Source: Brachybacterium phenoliresistens | GTDB lineage: Bacteria > Actinomycetota > Actinomycetes > Actinomycetales > Dermabacteraceae | NCBI RefSeq assembly: GCF_000576425.1 | Contig: NZ_KK069990.1 | Coordinates: forward strand, 62,001-126,000 | Reading direction: 5' to 3' | Length of the DNA: 64,000 bases | In this document: piece after piece, positions 2,550 to 37,428 of the stretch | Numbering within the stretch: the first letter of the stretch is position 1 | How the letters are laid out: every line of letters begins with the position of its first letter | Notes under the pieces: generated by a model | The model's input: the letters and a program-made list of their open reading frames with translations, nothing else | The model's database searches: none | What the model was told of the DNA's origin: nothing | Position numbers and translations under genes: made by a program

Positions 2550-3070
2550 CCGGCGCAGACCTCTCCCATGTGCGCGAGGACGGCTCCGCCCGCATGGTCG
2601 ACGTGACCGACAAGGCCGTCACCTCCCGCGCCGCCACGGCCCGGGCCGTGCTGCGTACCCGCCCCGACGTCATCGACCGCATCGCCGAGGGCACCCTGCC
2701 CAAGGGCGAGGCCCTGCCCGTGGCGCGCATCGCCGGGATAATGGGCGCCAAGCGCACCCCGGACCTCATCCCCCTGTGCCACCCGCTGCCGCTGTCCGGG
2801 GTGGAGCTGGACCTCGACCCCCACGACGACGTCGTCGAGATCCGCGCCCGGGTGCGGACCCGCGGCGTCACCGGCGTGGAGATGGAGGCGCTGACCGCCG
2901 TGAGCGTCGCGGCGCTGACCGTCTTCGACATGATCAAGGCCGTCGACCACCTCGCCGTGATCGAGCAGATCCGGGTCGAGGAGAAGTCCGGCGGGAAGAG
3001 CGGCGACTGGAGCCGGGGCGATGCGCCGGCCGCAGCCGCAGGCCCCGAGGAGCAGGAGGGCCCGCGATGA
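2546..3070 (+). CDS. moaC: Cyclic pyranopterin monophosphate synthase MoaC
   Basis: Rearranges 3',8-cyclo-GTP made by MoaA into cyclic pyranopterin monophosphate. 174 residues. Characteristic segments are PKGEALPVARIAGIMGAK near residue 55, LCHPLPLS near residue 77 and GVEMEALTAVSVAALTVFD near residue 110; these carry the conserved Lys, His and Asp/Glu of the active site. The last 25 residues are an Ala/Gly/Glu-rich tail beyond the conserved domain. It overlaps the end of moeA by ATGA. Confidence 0.95.
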   Translation: MTGADLSHVREDGSARMVDVTDKAVTSRAATARAVLRTRPDVIDRIAEGTLPKGEALPVARIAGIMGAKRTPDLIPLCHPLPLSGVELDLDPHDDVVEIRARVRTRGVTGVEMEALTAVSVAALTVFDMIKAVDHLAVIEQIRVEEKSGGKSGDWSRGDAPAAAAGPEEQEGPR

Positions 3071-3612
3071 GGGAGATCCCCGCCCGGCGCAGCGACGCCG
3101 ACTGCCGCATCCCCGATCCGGAGAACCCGGCGCTCCTGCTCGGCAGCGCGCGCGTGGTCATCGCCTCGACCCGTGCGGCCGACGGCACCTACGAGGACCG
3201 CACCGGCCCCCTGCTGCACGCCTGGCTCGCAGGCCGCGGCCTGGACATCGGCCCCGTCGTCGTCGTGCCCGACGGCCCCGAGGTGGGGCGGGCCGTCGGC
3301 GCGGCGATCGCGGACGGCGTGGACGTGCTCATCACCTCCGGCGGCACCGGCATCTCCCCGAGCGACGTCACCCCCGAGCAGACGGCTCCCCACCTGGACC
3401 GGGAGCTGCCGGGGATCCTCGAGGAGGTGCGGCGGCGGGGCCTGGCGAACTCCCCGGCCGCCCTGCTCAGCCGCGGCCTCGCCGGCATGGCCGGGCGGAC
3501 CGTCGTGGTGAACCTGCCCGGGTCCCGCGGCGGGGTGAAGGACGGCATCGCCGTGCTCGACCCGATCCTGGACCACCTCCTGGACCAGCGCGACGGCGGT
3601 GGCCACGCATGA
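3067..3612 (+). CDS. mog: MogA/MoaB-family molybdopterin adenylyltransferase
   Basis: Adenylylates molybdopterin to prepare it for MoeA. 181 residues with the MoCF_biosynth fold: VVIASTRAADG near residue 27, the signature TSGGTGISPSDVTPE near residue 88 and NLPGSRGG near residue 147. The start ATG overlaps the moaC stop. The family is clear; whether it is closer to MogA or MoaB cannot be decided from sequence alone, but as it is the only member visible here it probably supplies the adenylyltransferase step. Confidence 0.9.
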   Translation: MREIPARRSDADCRIPDPENPALLLGSARVVIASTRAADGTYEDRTGPLLHAWLAGRGLDIGPVVVVPDGPEVGRAVGAAIADGVDVLITSGGTGISPSDVTPEQTAPHLDRELPGILEEVRRRGLANSPAALLSRGLAGMAGRTVVVNLPGSRGGVKDGIAVLDPILDHLLDQRDGGGHA

Positions 3613-4211
3613 GCGGCCCCGGCTCCGCCGCGCCGGACGGGCCGACCGAGCAGACCGCGACCCCGAGCGCCGCGGTCCCCGACGCCGTGGCACCGGAGCG
3701 TGCACCGGAGGCCATCGGCCGCACCCCCTTCGGCGCCGACCCGCAGCAGCTGCGTGTCCCCGGCGACCCGGCGCTCGGCGAGGCCGGCGCGCGCGTGCGC
3801 CGCGCGAGCGTGGGGGAGGAGCCGATCTCCGTCGAGGAGATGGCCAGCGCCGTCGCCGATCCGCGCTGCGGGGCCGTGGTCACCTTCGACGGGGTGGTCC
3901 GCGACCATGACGGCGGGCGCACCGTGCTCTCCCTGGACTACAGCGCCCACCCCCTGGCGCAGCAGGCGCTCGCCGAGGCCGCGCGGGACGTGGCCGCGAG
4001 CCATGAGGACGTGCTCATCGCCCTCGCGCATCGCATCGGCCCGCTGCGCATTGGCGACACCGCCCTGGCCTGCGCGGTCGCGGCGCCGCACCGCAAGCTC
4101 GCCTTCTCCGCCTGCGACGCGCTGGTCGACGAGGTCAAGCGCCGCGTCCCCATCTGGAAGCACCAGCGCTTCGCCGACGGCGAGGCCGAATGGGTCGGTG
4201 CCGGCGGCTGA
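3609..4211 (+). CDS. moaE: Molybdopterin synthase catalytic subunit MoaE
   Basis: Large subunit of molybdopterin synthase; transfers sulfur from thiocarboxylated MoaD to cyclic pyranopterin. 200 residues, against about 140-150 for the family; the extra length is an Ala/Pro/Glu-rich N-terminal extension of about 65 residues. The core shows FDGVVRDHDGGRTV near residue 93, LAHRIGPLRIGD near residue 140, and the C-terminal Lys-containing DEVKRRVPIWKHQ that holds the active-site lysines. It overlaps mog by ATGA. No moaD follows, so the sulfur-carrier subunit must be encoded elsewhere, perhaps left of moaA. Confidence 0.93.
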   Translation: MSGPGSAAPDGPTEQTATPSAAVPDAVAPERAPEAIGRTPFGADPQQLRVPGDPALGEAGARVRRASVGEEPISVEEMASAVADPRCGAVVTFDGVVRDHDGGRTVLSLDYSAHPLAQQALAEAARDVAASHEDVLIALAHRIGPLRIGDTALACAVAAPHRKLAFSACDALVDEVKRRVPIWKHQRFADGEAEWVGAGG

Positions 4212-4318
4212 CCCCGCACCGCCGCCCGCACCGCGCCGCCCCGCCCCCGCGCCGCCCTGCCCCGCCCTGGCCGCCCCCGTATCGCGCCGCCCTGCCCTGC
4301 CCCCGCGCGGACGGCTGT

Positions 4319-4374
4319 CGAGTGCCGGCTGGCGAGCCAAAATCGGCCCATTCTGGTTCGCCAACCGGCACTCG
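4319..4374. repeat. Long imperfect palindrome P1
   Basis: A 56-nt inverted repeat. The outer 20-nt arms, 4319-4338 and 4355-4374, match at 18 of 20 positions, and the inner 16 nt are also partly symmetrical. It is AT-richer than its surroundings, has no U-tract and lies between two plus-strand genes. A tandem repeat follows directly. Unknown element; see findings. Confidence 0.85.
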
Positions 4375-4421
4375 TGCCGTGGCCGGTGCGGGCCGACGTG
4401 CCGTGGCCGGTGCGGGCCGGC
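4374..4421. repeat. 24-bp tandem duplication
   Basis: Two adjacent 24-nt units, 4374-4397 and 4398-4421, differing at one position. They start at the last base of palindrome P1. The rest of the 262-nt gap (4212-4318) is C-rich low-complexity DNA without a gene. Confidence 0.8.
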
Positions 4422-4461
4422 GCGCCGCGGTGCGGTTCACCCGGGGGACATCTGCGAGGGC

Positions 4462-4467
4462 TAGCGT
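4462..4467 (+). promoter_or_regulatory. -10 box (TAGCGT) of a leaderless promoter
   Basis: TAGCGT followed by 6 nt and then the ATG at 4474. This is the geometry seen repeatedly in the window and implies transcription starting at the start codon. No clear -35. Confidence 0.5.
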
Positions 4468-4473
4468 CGGGCC

Positions 4474-5364
4474 ATGCGCATCCTGCACCTGACCGACACG
4501 CATCTCTTCGCCGATCCCGCCGCCCGGCACTACGACCGCATCGCCACCGCCGATGCGCTGCGGGCGGTGCTCGAGAACCTCTCCGGGCTGCGGGGCGTGG
4601 ACCTCGTGGTGCACTCGGGGGACGCCTCCGAGGACGGCAGCGTCGCCAGCTACCGCCTGCTGCACGAGATGCTGGACCCGTTCGCCGCGCGGCTCGGGGC
4701 GAAGCTCGTGGTCGCCATGGGCAACCATGACGTCCCCGCCGCCTACGCGCAGGTCGCCGGGCCCGGCGACCACGCCGCGCCCTACCAGGACCGGGTGGTC
4801 ACCACCGGCGACGGGGCGCGGGCGGTGGTGCTGGACACGAGCGTCCCCGGCGCCGGCTACGGCCATCTCGACACCGTGCAGCTGGACTGGCTGCGCCGGA
4901 TCCTCGCGGTGCCGGCCCGCCGCGGCACCGTGCTGGTGCTGCACCACCCGCCGCTGGCGGCGGCCACCCCCCTGCTGCGCGCCCTGGACCTCGACGGGCT
5001 GGACGAGCTCTCCGCCGCGATCGAGGGCACGGACGTGCGCGTGATCCTCTCGGGCCACTACCACCACGCCCTCGACGGCCGGCTGGGCTCGGTGCCCGTG
5101 CACGTGGCGCCGGGGGTGACGAACGTGGTCGACCCGCTGGGCGCGGATCAGCACGAGCGCGCCCTCGCGCTCTCGGGGGCGAGCCTGGTGGAGTTCGACG
5201 GGCGCAGCGCGCAGTCGGCGCCGCGGATCACCACCTCCGTCTGGCCGAACGCGGGGGACCTCCCGGCCGACGGCGACCCCGGGCAGCGGCTCGCGCCGGT
5301 CTACGACTTCGACGAGGAGGCGGTGCGCGGCATCGTCGAGGCCGCCGGGCGCCGACACGTTTAG
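4474..5364 (+). CDS. CpdA-type metallophosphoesterase (cyclic-nucleotide phosphodiesterase family)
   Basis: Calcineurin-like phosphoesterase of 296 residues with the ordered metal-site motifs TDTHLF (residue 7), SGDASEDG (near 48), GNHD (near 88), LHHPP (near 155) and SGHYHH (near 192). These are the motifs of CpdA/Icc enzymes that hydrolyse 3',5'-cAMP with a dinuclear metal centre; substrate is inferred from family only. Cytosolic, no signal peptide. The stop codon TAG lies inside the CIRCE operator of the groS-groL operon, so transcription of this gene reads across the HrcA site. Confidence 0.8.
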   Translation: MRILHLTDTHLFADPAARHYDRIATADALRAVLENLSGLRGVDLVVHSGDASEDGSVASYRLLHEMLDPFAARLGAKLVVAMGNHDVPAAYAQVAGPGDHAAPYQDRVVTTGDGARAVVLDTSVPGAGYGHLDTVQLDWLRRILAVPARRGTVLVLHHPPLAAATPLLRALDLDGLDELSAAIEGTDVRVILSGHYHHALDGRLGSVPVHVAPGVTNVVDPLGADQHERALALSGASLVEFDGRSAQSAPRITTSVWPNAGDLPADGDPGQRLAPVYDFDEEAVRGIVEAAGRRHV

Positions 5365-5387
5365 CACTCGTCTTGCGCGAGTGCCAA
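5361..5387. promoter_or_regulatory. CIRCE operator 1 (HrcA site)
   Basis: TTAGCACTC-N9-GAGTGCCAA, a one-base departure from the classical TTAGCACTC-N9-GAGTGCTAA. It covers the stop codon of the preceding phosphodiesterase gene and the -35 of the groS promoter, so HrcA binding would block RNA polymerase. Confidence 0.93.
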
Positions 5388-5401
5388 GGCGGTCCTAGAG
5401 T
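5373..5401 (+). promoter_or_regulatory. groS-groL promoter
   Basis: TTGCGC (5373-5378), a 17-nt spacer and TAGAGT (5396-5401). The -35 is embedded in CIRCE 1. The expected start near 5408 lies at the edge of CIRCE 2, giving a leader of about 135 nt before groS. Confidence 0.7.
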
Positions 5402-5409
5402 TGTCCCCG

Positions 5410-5436
5410 TTGGCAGTCACCTGGCCCGAGTGCCAG
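5410..5436. promoter_or_regulatory. CIRCE-like operator 2 (degenerate)
   Basis: TTGGCAGTC-N9-GAGTGCCAG. It has exactly the 9-9-9 geometry of CIRCE, with 7 of 9 consensus bases in each arm, and starts 49 bp after operator 1, just downstream of the predicted start point. Confidence 0.72.
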
Positions 5437-5541
5437 AGCTGCCAGACGGGTCCCCACCCGGTCGGCACCGCGACGACGACCGCTCCGGGGATCCGAACCC
5501 GGAACTCTCAGAGTCATTCATCGAAGAAGGAGTGGATCCGC

Positions 5542-7429
<1,888 letters not shown>

Positions 7430-11867: not shown

Positions 11868-11959
11868 CCGGCCCCGGCGCCGCCCGCTGACCCGCCAGGG
11901 CCCCGGGCCCGAGCGGAGCTCCCGCCCGCCGCCGATCGATCCCGGCTGCGAACACGAAA

Positions 11960-12015
11960 GGCGGCCTCAGAGCCGCGGGCCAGGCGATTGCCTGGCTCGA
12001 GGCTCTGAGGCCGCC
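11960..12015 (+). terminator. guaB terminator (nested hairpin)
   Basis: Perfect 15-bp outer stem (11960-11974 with 12001-12015) enclosing a second 7-bp stem, GCCAGGC-GATT-GCCTGGC (11979-11996). The rest of the 254-nt gap holds nothing else I can identify. Confidence 0.8.
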
Positions 12016-12121
12016 GTCCGTGCACAGGCGATCCCGTGTCGCGGGAGAGACGGCGCGGCCCCGGCCCCCGCGTTGTGGATGACGGACCAGGCCTGTCCGT
12101 GATCGCACCTACCCTGGAGGC

Positions 12122-22156: not shown

Positions 22157-22273
22157 GCCGGGACGTCGGGCCCGCCGACCGCGCCGTCGTGCGGCCGCGG
22201 GACCACCGTGCGGCCGCGGGACCAGGGTTCGTGCGGTCGGCGTGTGCTGCGGGAGAGGTCCTGGCGGCGTTCG

Positions 22274-22335
22274 AGAAATTGCACGGTTCTGTACCATGTG
22301 AATCGATTCAGGTGGTACGGAACCGTGCAATTTCT
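22274..22335. repeat. Long palindrome P2
   Basis: Arms of 31 nt with no loop (22274-22304 and 22305-22335), 28 of 31 symmetrical, centred on ATCGAT. Much AT-richer than the genome. It begins AGAAATTGCACGGTTC and ends with the complement. Its right end runs into the first of two direct repeats. Confidence 0.9.
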
Positions 22336-22400
22336 GGAGTGCCCCGCGAAGGCATCCGGGGACGGCGCGATTTCTCGAGTGCCCCGCGCAGGCATCCGGG
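22330..22400. repeat. 31-bp direct repeats with 40-bp period
   Basis: 22330-22360 and 22370-22400 match at 29 of 31 positions. A partial inverted copy of the first 14 nt lies left of P2 at 22266-22279 (12 of 14), so the whole region is a composite of one repeat unit in both orientations. Confidence 0.82.
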
Positions 22401-24179: not shown

Positions 24180-24226
24180 TCCCCGGGCGGCGCTGATCGT
24201 CGCCTCCCCGCGCGCTGCGCGGGCAC

Positions 24227-24290
24227 GGAAGGGCCTGTGAGGGCCGGTCACCGGGCGATGACCCGGCGAGCGGCCCCCACAGGCCCTTCC
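24227..24290 (+). terminator. guaA terminator hairpin
   Basis: 20-bp stem (24227-24246 with 24271-24290, 19 of 20) and a 24-nt loop containing a smaller CCGGG/CCCGG stem. It lies between convergent guaA and the SDR gene and could serve both. Confidence 0.82.
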
Positions 24291-24372
24291 GCGTATGTCC
24301 GAAGGTCGCGCGGGCACGTCTGCTCCACATCGCGCGGGCGATCCCGGCCTCCACGCGAGGCCGGCGGCGGCG

Positions 24373-25336: not shown

Positions 25337-25390
25337 GGAGGTCATTCTCCGTCGCTTGAACGCTCCTTCAAGCGACGGGGAATGACCTCC
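25337..25390. repeat. Long palindrome P3
   Basis: 24-nt arms (25337-25360 and 25367-25390), 23 of 24 symmetrical, with a 6-nt loop CGCTCC. The arms contain TCATTC and GCTTGAA and are AT-richer than flanking DNA. As RNA it would be a near-perfect stem without a U-tract. Confidence 0.9.
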
Positions 25391-37284: not shown

Positions 37285-37336
37285 CTCGCCTCCGGTGACG
37301 ATGACGGGTGACGGTCGGCGGACCGTCACGGGATGC

Positions 37337-37391
37337 GAGCGGGCCCCGTGCCCGGCGACCTGGACGCGGTCGCCGGGCACGGGGCCCGCTC
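37337..37391. terminator. Bidirectional terminator, 24-bp stem
   Basis: Perfect 24-bp stem (37337-37360 with 37368-37391) and a 7-nt loop TGGACGC between convergent genes. A 9-bp hairpin (37308-37316 with 37321-37329) precedes it. Confidence 0.85.
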
Positions 37392-37428
37392 GCTGCGGTC
37401 GCCCGGGCTCGCGTGCCCGGGCGCGACC

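Follow-up and report, generated by a model that had tools for sequence, protein, structure and literature searches.

A dispersed palindrome of Brachybacterium phenoliresistens and its probable partnership with a predicted AbiEi-like nuclease

The window, a 64,000-nt stretch of the Brachybacterium phenoliresistens genome (4.19 Mb in 35 contigs; G000 in our numbering), contains a 56-bp palindrome, P1, at positions 4319–4374. P1 lies between two genes that are both on the + strand, an upstream frame with moaE (3612–4211, start not settled; Pfam MoaE, E 8.4e-33, residues 68–178) and a downstream metallophosphoesterase gene (4474–5364; Pfam Metallophos, E 3.3e-16). The left arm (4319–4338, + strand) is composed of a species-specific outer 10 nt, CGAGTGCCGG, four variable nucleotides and the motif CGAGCC. 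It is followed by a variable central segment of 16 nt (4339–4354) and the right arm (4355–4374, − strand), and 18 of the 20 outer positions pair between the arms. Two tandem 24-nt units (4374–4397 and 4398–4421), identical at 23 of 24 positions, come directly after the palindrome, the first of them starting on its last base. The G+C content is 0.67 over 4319–4378 and 0.74 for the window. The palindrome, its arm matches, the adjoining repeats and the AT-richer composition had all been described in an earlier note made from the letters of this DNA, and each was found as described. The note had also reported that P1 has no U-tract, and this agrees with the sequence, in which no T run follows 4374 and no A run precedes 4319; P1 shares a G+C-rich hairpin with intrinsic terminators but lacks this second element. 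Likewise, the note was right to set aside an HrcA site. CIRCE, the HrcA operator, has the consensus TTAGCACTC-N9-GAGTGCTAA, and the half-sites of P1 stand in the opposite order. A separate inverted repeat at 5362–5388, upstream of groES-groEL, is what we take to be a CIRCE-like element by that consensus. In the window from 3000 to 7000 no Rfam family matched at or above its gathering score (the best E value, 0.91, came from microRNA models).

P1 is contained in ∼200 bp of extra DNA (4212–4421) that separates moaE from the phosphoesterase gene in this genome only. The gene order around P1 is kept in many congeners, and the moaE stop and the phosphoesterase motif are 277 nt apart in the source genome versus 14–106 nt in 15 other species (those of 29 in which both ends were parsed). 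A covariance model built from 12 copies of the source genome (R1) detected no palindrome at this site in 29 congener loci, with two of them, L253 and L268, at the chance level of 13–15 bits. The site looks like a gain in the source genome. The gain amounts to ∼200 bp rather than a clean 56-bp insertion, so a target-site duplication is not readable at P1; none is visible by eye at the edges of 10 copies in the source genome, for which there is no clean empty site for comparison. An origin from a phage or plasmid was rejected, as positions 4300–4440 had no blastn match, and the nuclease described below no tblastn match, in phages or plasmids.

Taken alone, P1 is borderline and within chance for DNA so rich in G+C. 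Of 30 dinucleotide-shuffled versions of the window, three reach or exceed its inverted-repeat score of 15, and six other inverted repeats in the window itself outscore it. A chance palindrome is nevertheless rejected, and P1 is placed above chance, because of the repeat family to which it belongs. The arm pattern GAGTGCCGG-N(23-50)-CCGGCACTC has 10 exact copies in the source genome, all 54–55 nt long, and the reversed control pattern has none; none of the 37 congeners contains an exact copy of the arm pattern. The earlier note had named a copy search through the genome and related species as the test of a palindromic repeat family. Arm searches, the pattern and R1 together place the family at 19 sites in the source genome, and a second covariance model, R2, has matches in 29 of the 38 genomes analyzed from the genus. 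R2 was built from 65 of 78 sites of the source genome and other species of the genus (the 13 excluded sites comprised degenerate copies, duplicated copies and a few more), and it has no match in any of nine genomes from five other genera of the family. The bare arm pattern was also run over a large contig collection, where it hit at least 115 stretches from bacteria of all kinds; with so short a pattern and so large a collection this yield is, by our estimate, near the chance expectation, and it is therefore not taken as evidence of how far the family has spread.

The alignments of the family indicate that pairing of the arms is maintained. The R2 alignment contains 22 base pairs, 91.3% of which are standard pairs (71.4% in shuffled alignments), and 19 of the 22 have changes on both sides. 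Covariation in this alignment is 0.538 versus 0.171, and for the 12 copies of the source genome it is 0.170 versus 0.102; none of 500 shuffles reaches the observed value in either case. The four unconserved arm positions also tend to pair inside single copies of the source genome. Conservation drops sharply at the edges of the palindrome and is low outside them in both G000 and G010, so the 24-bp duplication beside P1, which does not share the conservation of the repeat, appears to be a tandem duplication of local origin that lies outside it. The arms are specific to the species: the outer arm that reads CGAGTGCCGG in the source genome is mostly CGACTGTCAG in G010, mostly CAACAGCCCG in G014 and G027, CTATAGGA in G005 and AGATGTGAGG in G034. 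Several sites are common to different species by descent, with a palindrome present in both species and arms that differ on both sides, which is not accounted for by pure transposition. An insertion sequence that uses the arms as distant terminal repeats was considered and rejected, as single arms (with at most one mismatch) almost only pair around one palindrome. One locus of the source genome (L009 1498–1701, G000:C7:190100–190303) holds a tandem array of three palindromes with a period of ∼72 bp, the middle one of which has decayed.

Comparison of the neighbors of all sites revealed one gene that has palindromes on both sides in several species. In the source genome this gene lies at C19:5060–6151 and encodes a 364-aa protein, a predicted nuclease. 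Of the palindromes compared, P1 is nearest to the two beside this gene (alignment scores of 34 and 30; the other nine score at most 11), and the arm pattern, the covariance model and these scores place it, as a solitary copy, in the family that borders the C19 gene. To the right of the left flanking palindrome (L013 1500–1610, G000:C19 near 4775), the half-arm CCGGCACTCGAG occurs twice more in unpaired form.

Within the genus, 37 of the 38 genomes encode homologs of the nuclease. R2 detects palindromes beside many close homologs, and a model-free inverted-repeat scan found palindromes with other arms beside more distant homologs as well; homologs with palindromes also occur in Leucobacter, Promicromonospora, Pseudarthrobacter, Micromonospora, Rothia, Microbacterium and other genera. 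In a strict scan of 80 nuclease loci, taken from this genus and other actinobacteria, palindromes were located within 500 bp of the gene on both sides in 26 loci, on one side in 25 and on neither side in 29, and R2 finds weaker palindromes in eight of the last group. The density of strict inverted repeats is 1.03 per kb in the 500-bp flanks of the nuclease genes, versus 0.075 per kb in the rest of the same loci and 0.071 per kb in the 29 moaE loci. Where both sides carry a palindrome, the two within a locus are more similar than either is to the palindromes of other loci, and this is so for all 26 loci (mean likeness score of 35.7 versus 7.35; 0 of 10,000 permutations). Matched pairs 600–2500 bp apart were found in 28 of the 80 nuclease loci; a background set of 115 loci (857 kb, obtained with the bare arm pattern) had such a pair in one locus. 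Among the loci fetched with the bare GAGTGCCGG pattern, and not through the protein, is one from Olsenella (L042 2757–4352) in which two weak palindromes flank a distant nuclease homolog. Some homologs appear to be fragmented (L322/L213 in G027, L336 in G034), and palindromes are still present in those genomes.

The structure of the source-genome protein was predicted with a pLDDT of 90, and the protein is predicted to be a fusion in which an AbiEi-like DNA-binding domain precedes an EDxHD/Vsr-type nuclease. Residues 1–224 resemble AbiEi (6y8q; Z 10.0, 174 aligned residues, rmsd 7.1) and Rv2827c (1zel; Z 7.8), and residues 229–333 resemble I-Bth0305I (3r3p; Z 11.2), 3hrl (Z 10.7) and Vsr (1cw0; Z 9.1). 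Residues E232, D265, E276, H282 and D292 are conserved in at least 90% of 26 proteins and are presumably catalytic. Among 26 homologs, the Pfam domains MTES_1575 and DUF559 were detected in 23 and 13, respectively (E ≤ 0.01), and the PADLOC AbiEi models match up to nine; the source-genome protein is under the Pfam cut-off for these domains and has no match to the PADLOC AbiEi models. MTES_1575 is described as a Vsr-type domain in PMC3710099. As reported in PMC7319586, AbiEi and Rv2827c bind inverted repeats of 23 bp, and according to PMC3943268 I-Bth0305I forms a dimer on a target that spans nearly 60 bp. Recognition of a 57-bp palindrome would be plausible for a protein in which the AbiEi and EDxHD folds are combined, and its nuclease domain may also cut the palindrome.

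Most solitary copies resemble the palindromes beside the nuclease of the genome in which they lie. This comparison covered 64 of the 78 sites (8 border a nuclease gene, and 6 are from species with no flanking palindrome), with the flanking palindromes placed by hand and weak ones included. The closest or tied closest palindromes were those beside the genome's own nuclease for 48 of the 64 copies, and mean likeness was 13.4 of 16 to the own nuclease versus 9.1 to those of other species (0 of 10,000 permutations). The remaining 16 are closer to the nuclease of another species, including four of five copies in G026, both in G007 and the only one in G008; the G026 nuclease now has other palindromes, plus one solitary copy that matches them. 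The first nuclease of the source genome is at a site of its own, and 15 others have one common ancestral site. The second (C4:335233) is at a site common to most of the genus. Its palindromes in the source genome, two beside the gene and two solitary, differ in sequence, as a set, from those of the first, and their paired arms were found in none of the 37 congeners. Nuclease lineages tend toward palindromes of their own. Across genomes, the nuclease and the number of R2 matches are moderately correlated (Spearman 0.47, or 0.42 without the source genome), with exceptions in both directions. Three genomes (G020, G023 and G032) have a good homolog and no R2 match anywhere, and R2 matches occur with no intact close homolog among those listed in G034 (27 matches), G030 (11) and G013 (10).

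The matched pairs around the gene and the many solitary copies could also be read as traces of an element that always moves whole, as palindrome-gene-palindrome, and whose gene is then deleted by recombination between the palindromes in the manner of solo LTRs. The separate location of the first nuclease, away from the ancestral site of the 15 others, would fit such an origin. We consider it a poor explanation with little chance of being correct, since there are ∼19 palindrome places for one intact cognate nuclease in the source genome and an unsystematic look at solitary sites recognized no nuclease remnant.

P1 is not the only palindrome of this kind in the window. A solitary 54-bp palindrome at 25337–25390 matches those beside a third nuclease homolog, on contig C18 of the source genome (alignment scores of 28 and 21; the other nine compared score at most 9), and is a second palindrome family of the same kind within the window. 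A 68-bp palindrome at 22271–22338 scores 29.5 bits with R2 and has a slight likeness to the G010 nuclease palindromes (L337, score 13). The strong inverted repeats at 37335–37393, 24226–24291 and 11953–12022 are unlike any nuclease palindrome compared and are perhaps terminators.

The palindrome copies are located at the 3′ ends of genes. Gene contexts were assigned with a home-made caller based on codon G+C, which classified 62 of the 78 sites (9 overlapped a called frame and 7 were unclassifiable) as 31 convergent, 30 co-directional and 1 divergent. The background, a small one of 37 gaps from the window and the moaE loci, contained 6 convergent, 20 co-directional and 11 divergent contexts, so divergent contexts are rarer at the palindrome sites (Fisher p 6e-5). 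This distribution, together with the stable hairpins and the sites that species have in common by descent, is what would be expected if the palindromes were bidirectional terminators or stabilizers of mRNA ends, alike through copying or conversion, with the nuclease gene merely happening to have two of them. However, a 3′-end position is equally typical of tolerated insertions, P1 has no U-tract, and there are just ∼19 places per genome. Terminators would also need neither the match between left and right palindromes in every two-sided locus, nor the clustering at one protein family, nor the likeness of solitary copies to the nuclease palindromes of their own genome. Termination as the sole explanation is therefore unlikely, but the palindromes may function as terminators alongside the nuclease system.

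The orientation data also bear on whether the palindromes are the operators of a regulon, in which the AbiEi-like domain would be a repressor and the flanking copies would be autoregulatory. AbiEi proteins are described as autoregulating through inverted repeats (PMC7319586), and the arms and the protein differ together between genomes. Against this, the sites are at 3′ ends and one of the 62 classified contexts is divergent, a copy is also found downstream of the nuclease gene, and the non-conserved arm positions pair within each copy, which independent half-sites would not need. We regard a regulon as highly improbable on this evidence.

The arrangement that the palindromes and the nuclease gene resemble most closely in working is the REPtron, in which TnpA-REP genes are bordered by REPs (PMC8266576). 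In REPtrons (TnpA-REP/RAYT with REP/REPIN), as here, a gene for a DNA-cutting enzyme (a predicted one in our case) lies between palindromes whose solitary copies are scattered between genes, tandem copies occur, and repeats and enzyme differ together between genomes. The enzymes are unrelated, being HUH/Y1 in REPtrons and AbiEi-EDxHD/Vsr-like here. REPs are also present in hundreds of copies with a GTAG/CGTC foot, whereas here there are ∼19 places with nearly symmetric, footless palindromes of mostly 54–60 bp. Neither foot was found in the flanks of the 10 source-genome copies, and a Y1 transposase as the partner was rejected, as PF01797 has no match in the source genome (5 of 14 control genomes match). 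With both the foot and the Y1 enzyme missing, the system is REPtron-like in working and not a REPtron. The earlier note had proposed a repetitive-extragenic element, a mobile remnant or a binding site; the dispersed family upholds the general idea, a strict REP is contradicted by the same two features, and the link to a nuclease was beyond the reach of the note.

Other known systems share single traits with this one. Elements of the IS200/IS605 type also have a coding sequence between palindromes that can fold as single strands, but here there is no Y1 transposase in the source genome, full symmetric palindromes that are alike stand at both ends, and no guide tetranucleotide was seen. With EDxHD nucleases of the I-Bth0305I/Vsr type the protein has in common the Vsr-like catalytic fold with its conserved acidic and histidine residues, and the target of nearly 60 bp that PMC3943268 gives for the I-Bth0305I dimer is near the palindrome length. 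In contrast to I-Bth0305I, the gene here, as known from sequence alone, is free-standing and chromosomal, lies between two target-like palindromes and has an AbiEi-like fusion. The AbiEi antitoxin of the type IV toxin-antitoxin system AbiE resembles residues 1–224 in fold and, as presented in PMC7319586, binds inverted repeats, whereas the present protein has a nuclease domain and its palindromes flank the gene on both sides and occur elsewhere. The solitary copies are like MITEs in being short, palindromic, non-coding and multi-copy, with ends as in an apparently autonomous element of the genome, but the partner enzyme is not a DDE transposase.

Taken together, P1 is probably, though by no means certainly, a solitary copy of a 56–57-bp palindrome whose cognate partner is a nuclease encoded at another place in the genome, in a system that is REPtron-like with an unrelated enzyme and unrelated repeats. 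The partnership of nuclease and palindrome appears well supported by the genomic comparisons, and movement and cleavage are what we infer from it. The AbiEi-like domain would allow the nuclease to bind its own palindrome, probably with the protein as a dimer across both arms, and the nuclease would nick or cut the palindrome in a hairpin or cruciform form, or act on the duplex. Repair or copying from other copies would spread the palindrome, and the same process would keep the arms paired and the copies alike within a genome. The palindrome-gene-palindrome unit would be the autonomous element, and P1 and similar copies would be non-autonomous copies or solo remnants that persist at the 3′ ends of genes, where they may be least harmful. 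No published account of such a nuclease-palindrome pairing was found in the open-access literature.

A broader proposal, to which we give an even chance, is that these genes and repeats represent an undescribed and widespread mobile system of actinobacteria, in which AbiEi-EDxHD nucleases have their own palindromes of ∼45–75 bp and are able to seed solitary ones, with the specificities of enzyme and repeat changing together. It would be an independent counterpart of the REPtron with a restriction-enzyme-like nuclease, and two unrelated enzyme folds would then have converged on the layout of a gene with palindromes. If this is true, the scattered palindromes of many high-G+C bacteria would have a maker that can be named, the small nucleases annotated as AbiEi-like, DUF559 or MTES_1575. 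The origin and spread of short palindromic repeats would become testable with an enzyme besides TnpA-REP, as each nuclease would bring a predicted DNA substrate, and the family would be a source of site-specific nucleases that may read long palindromes.
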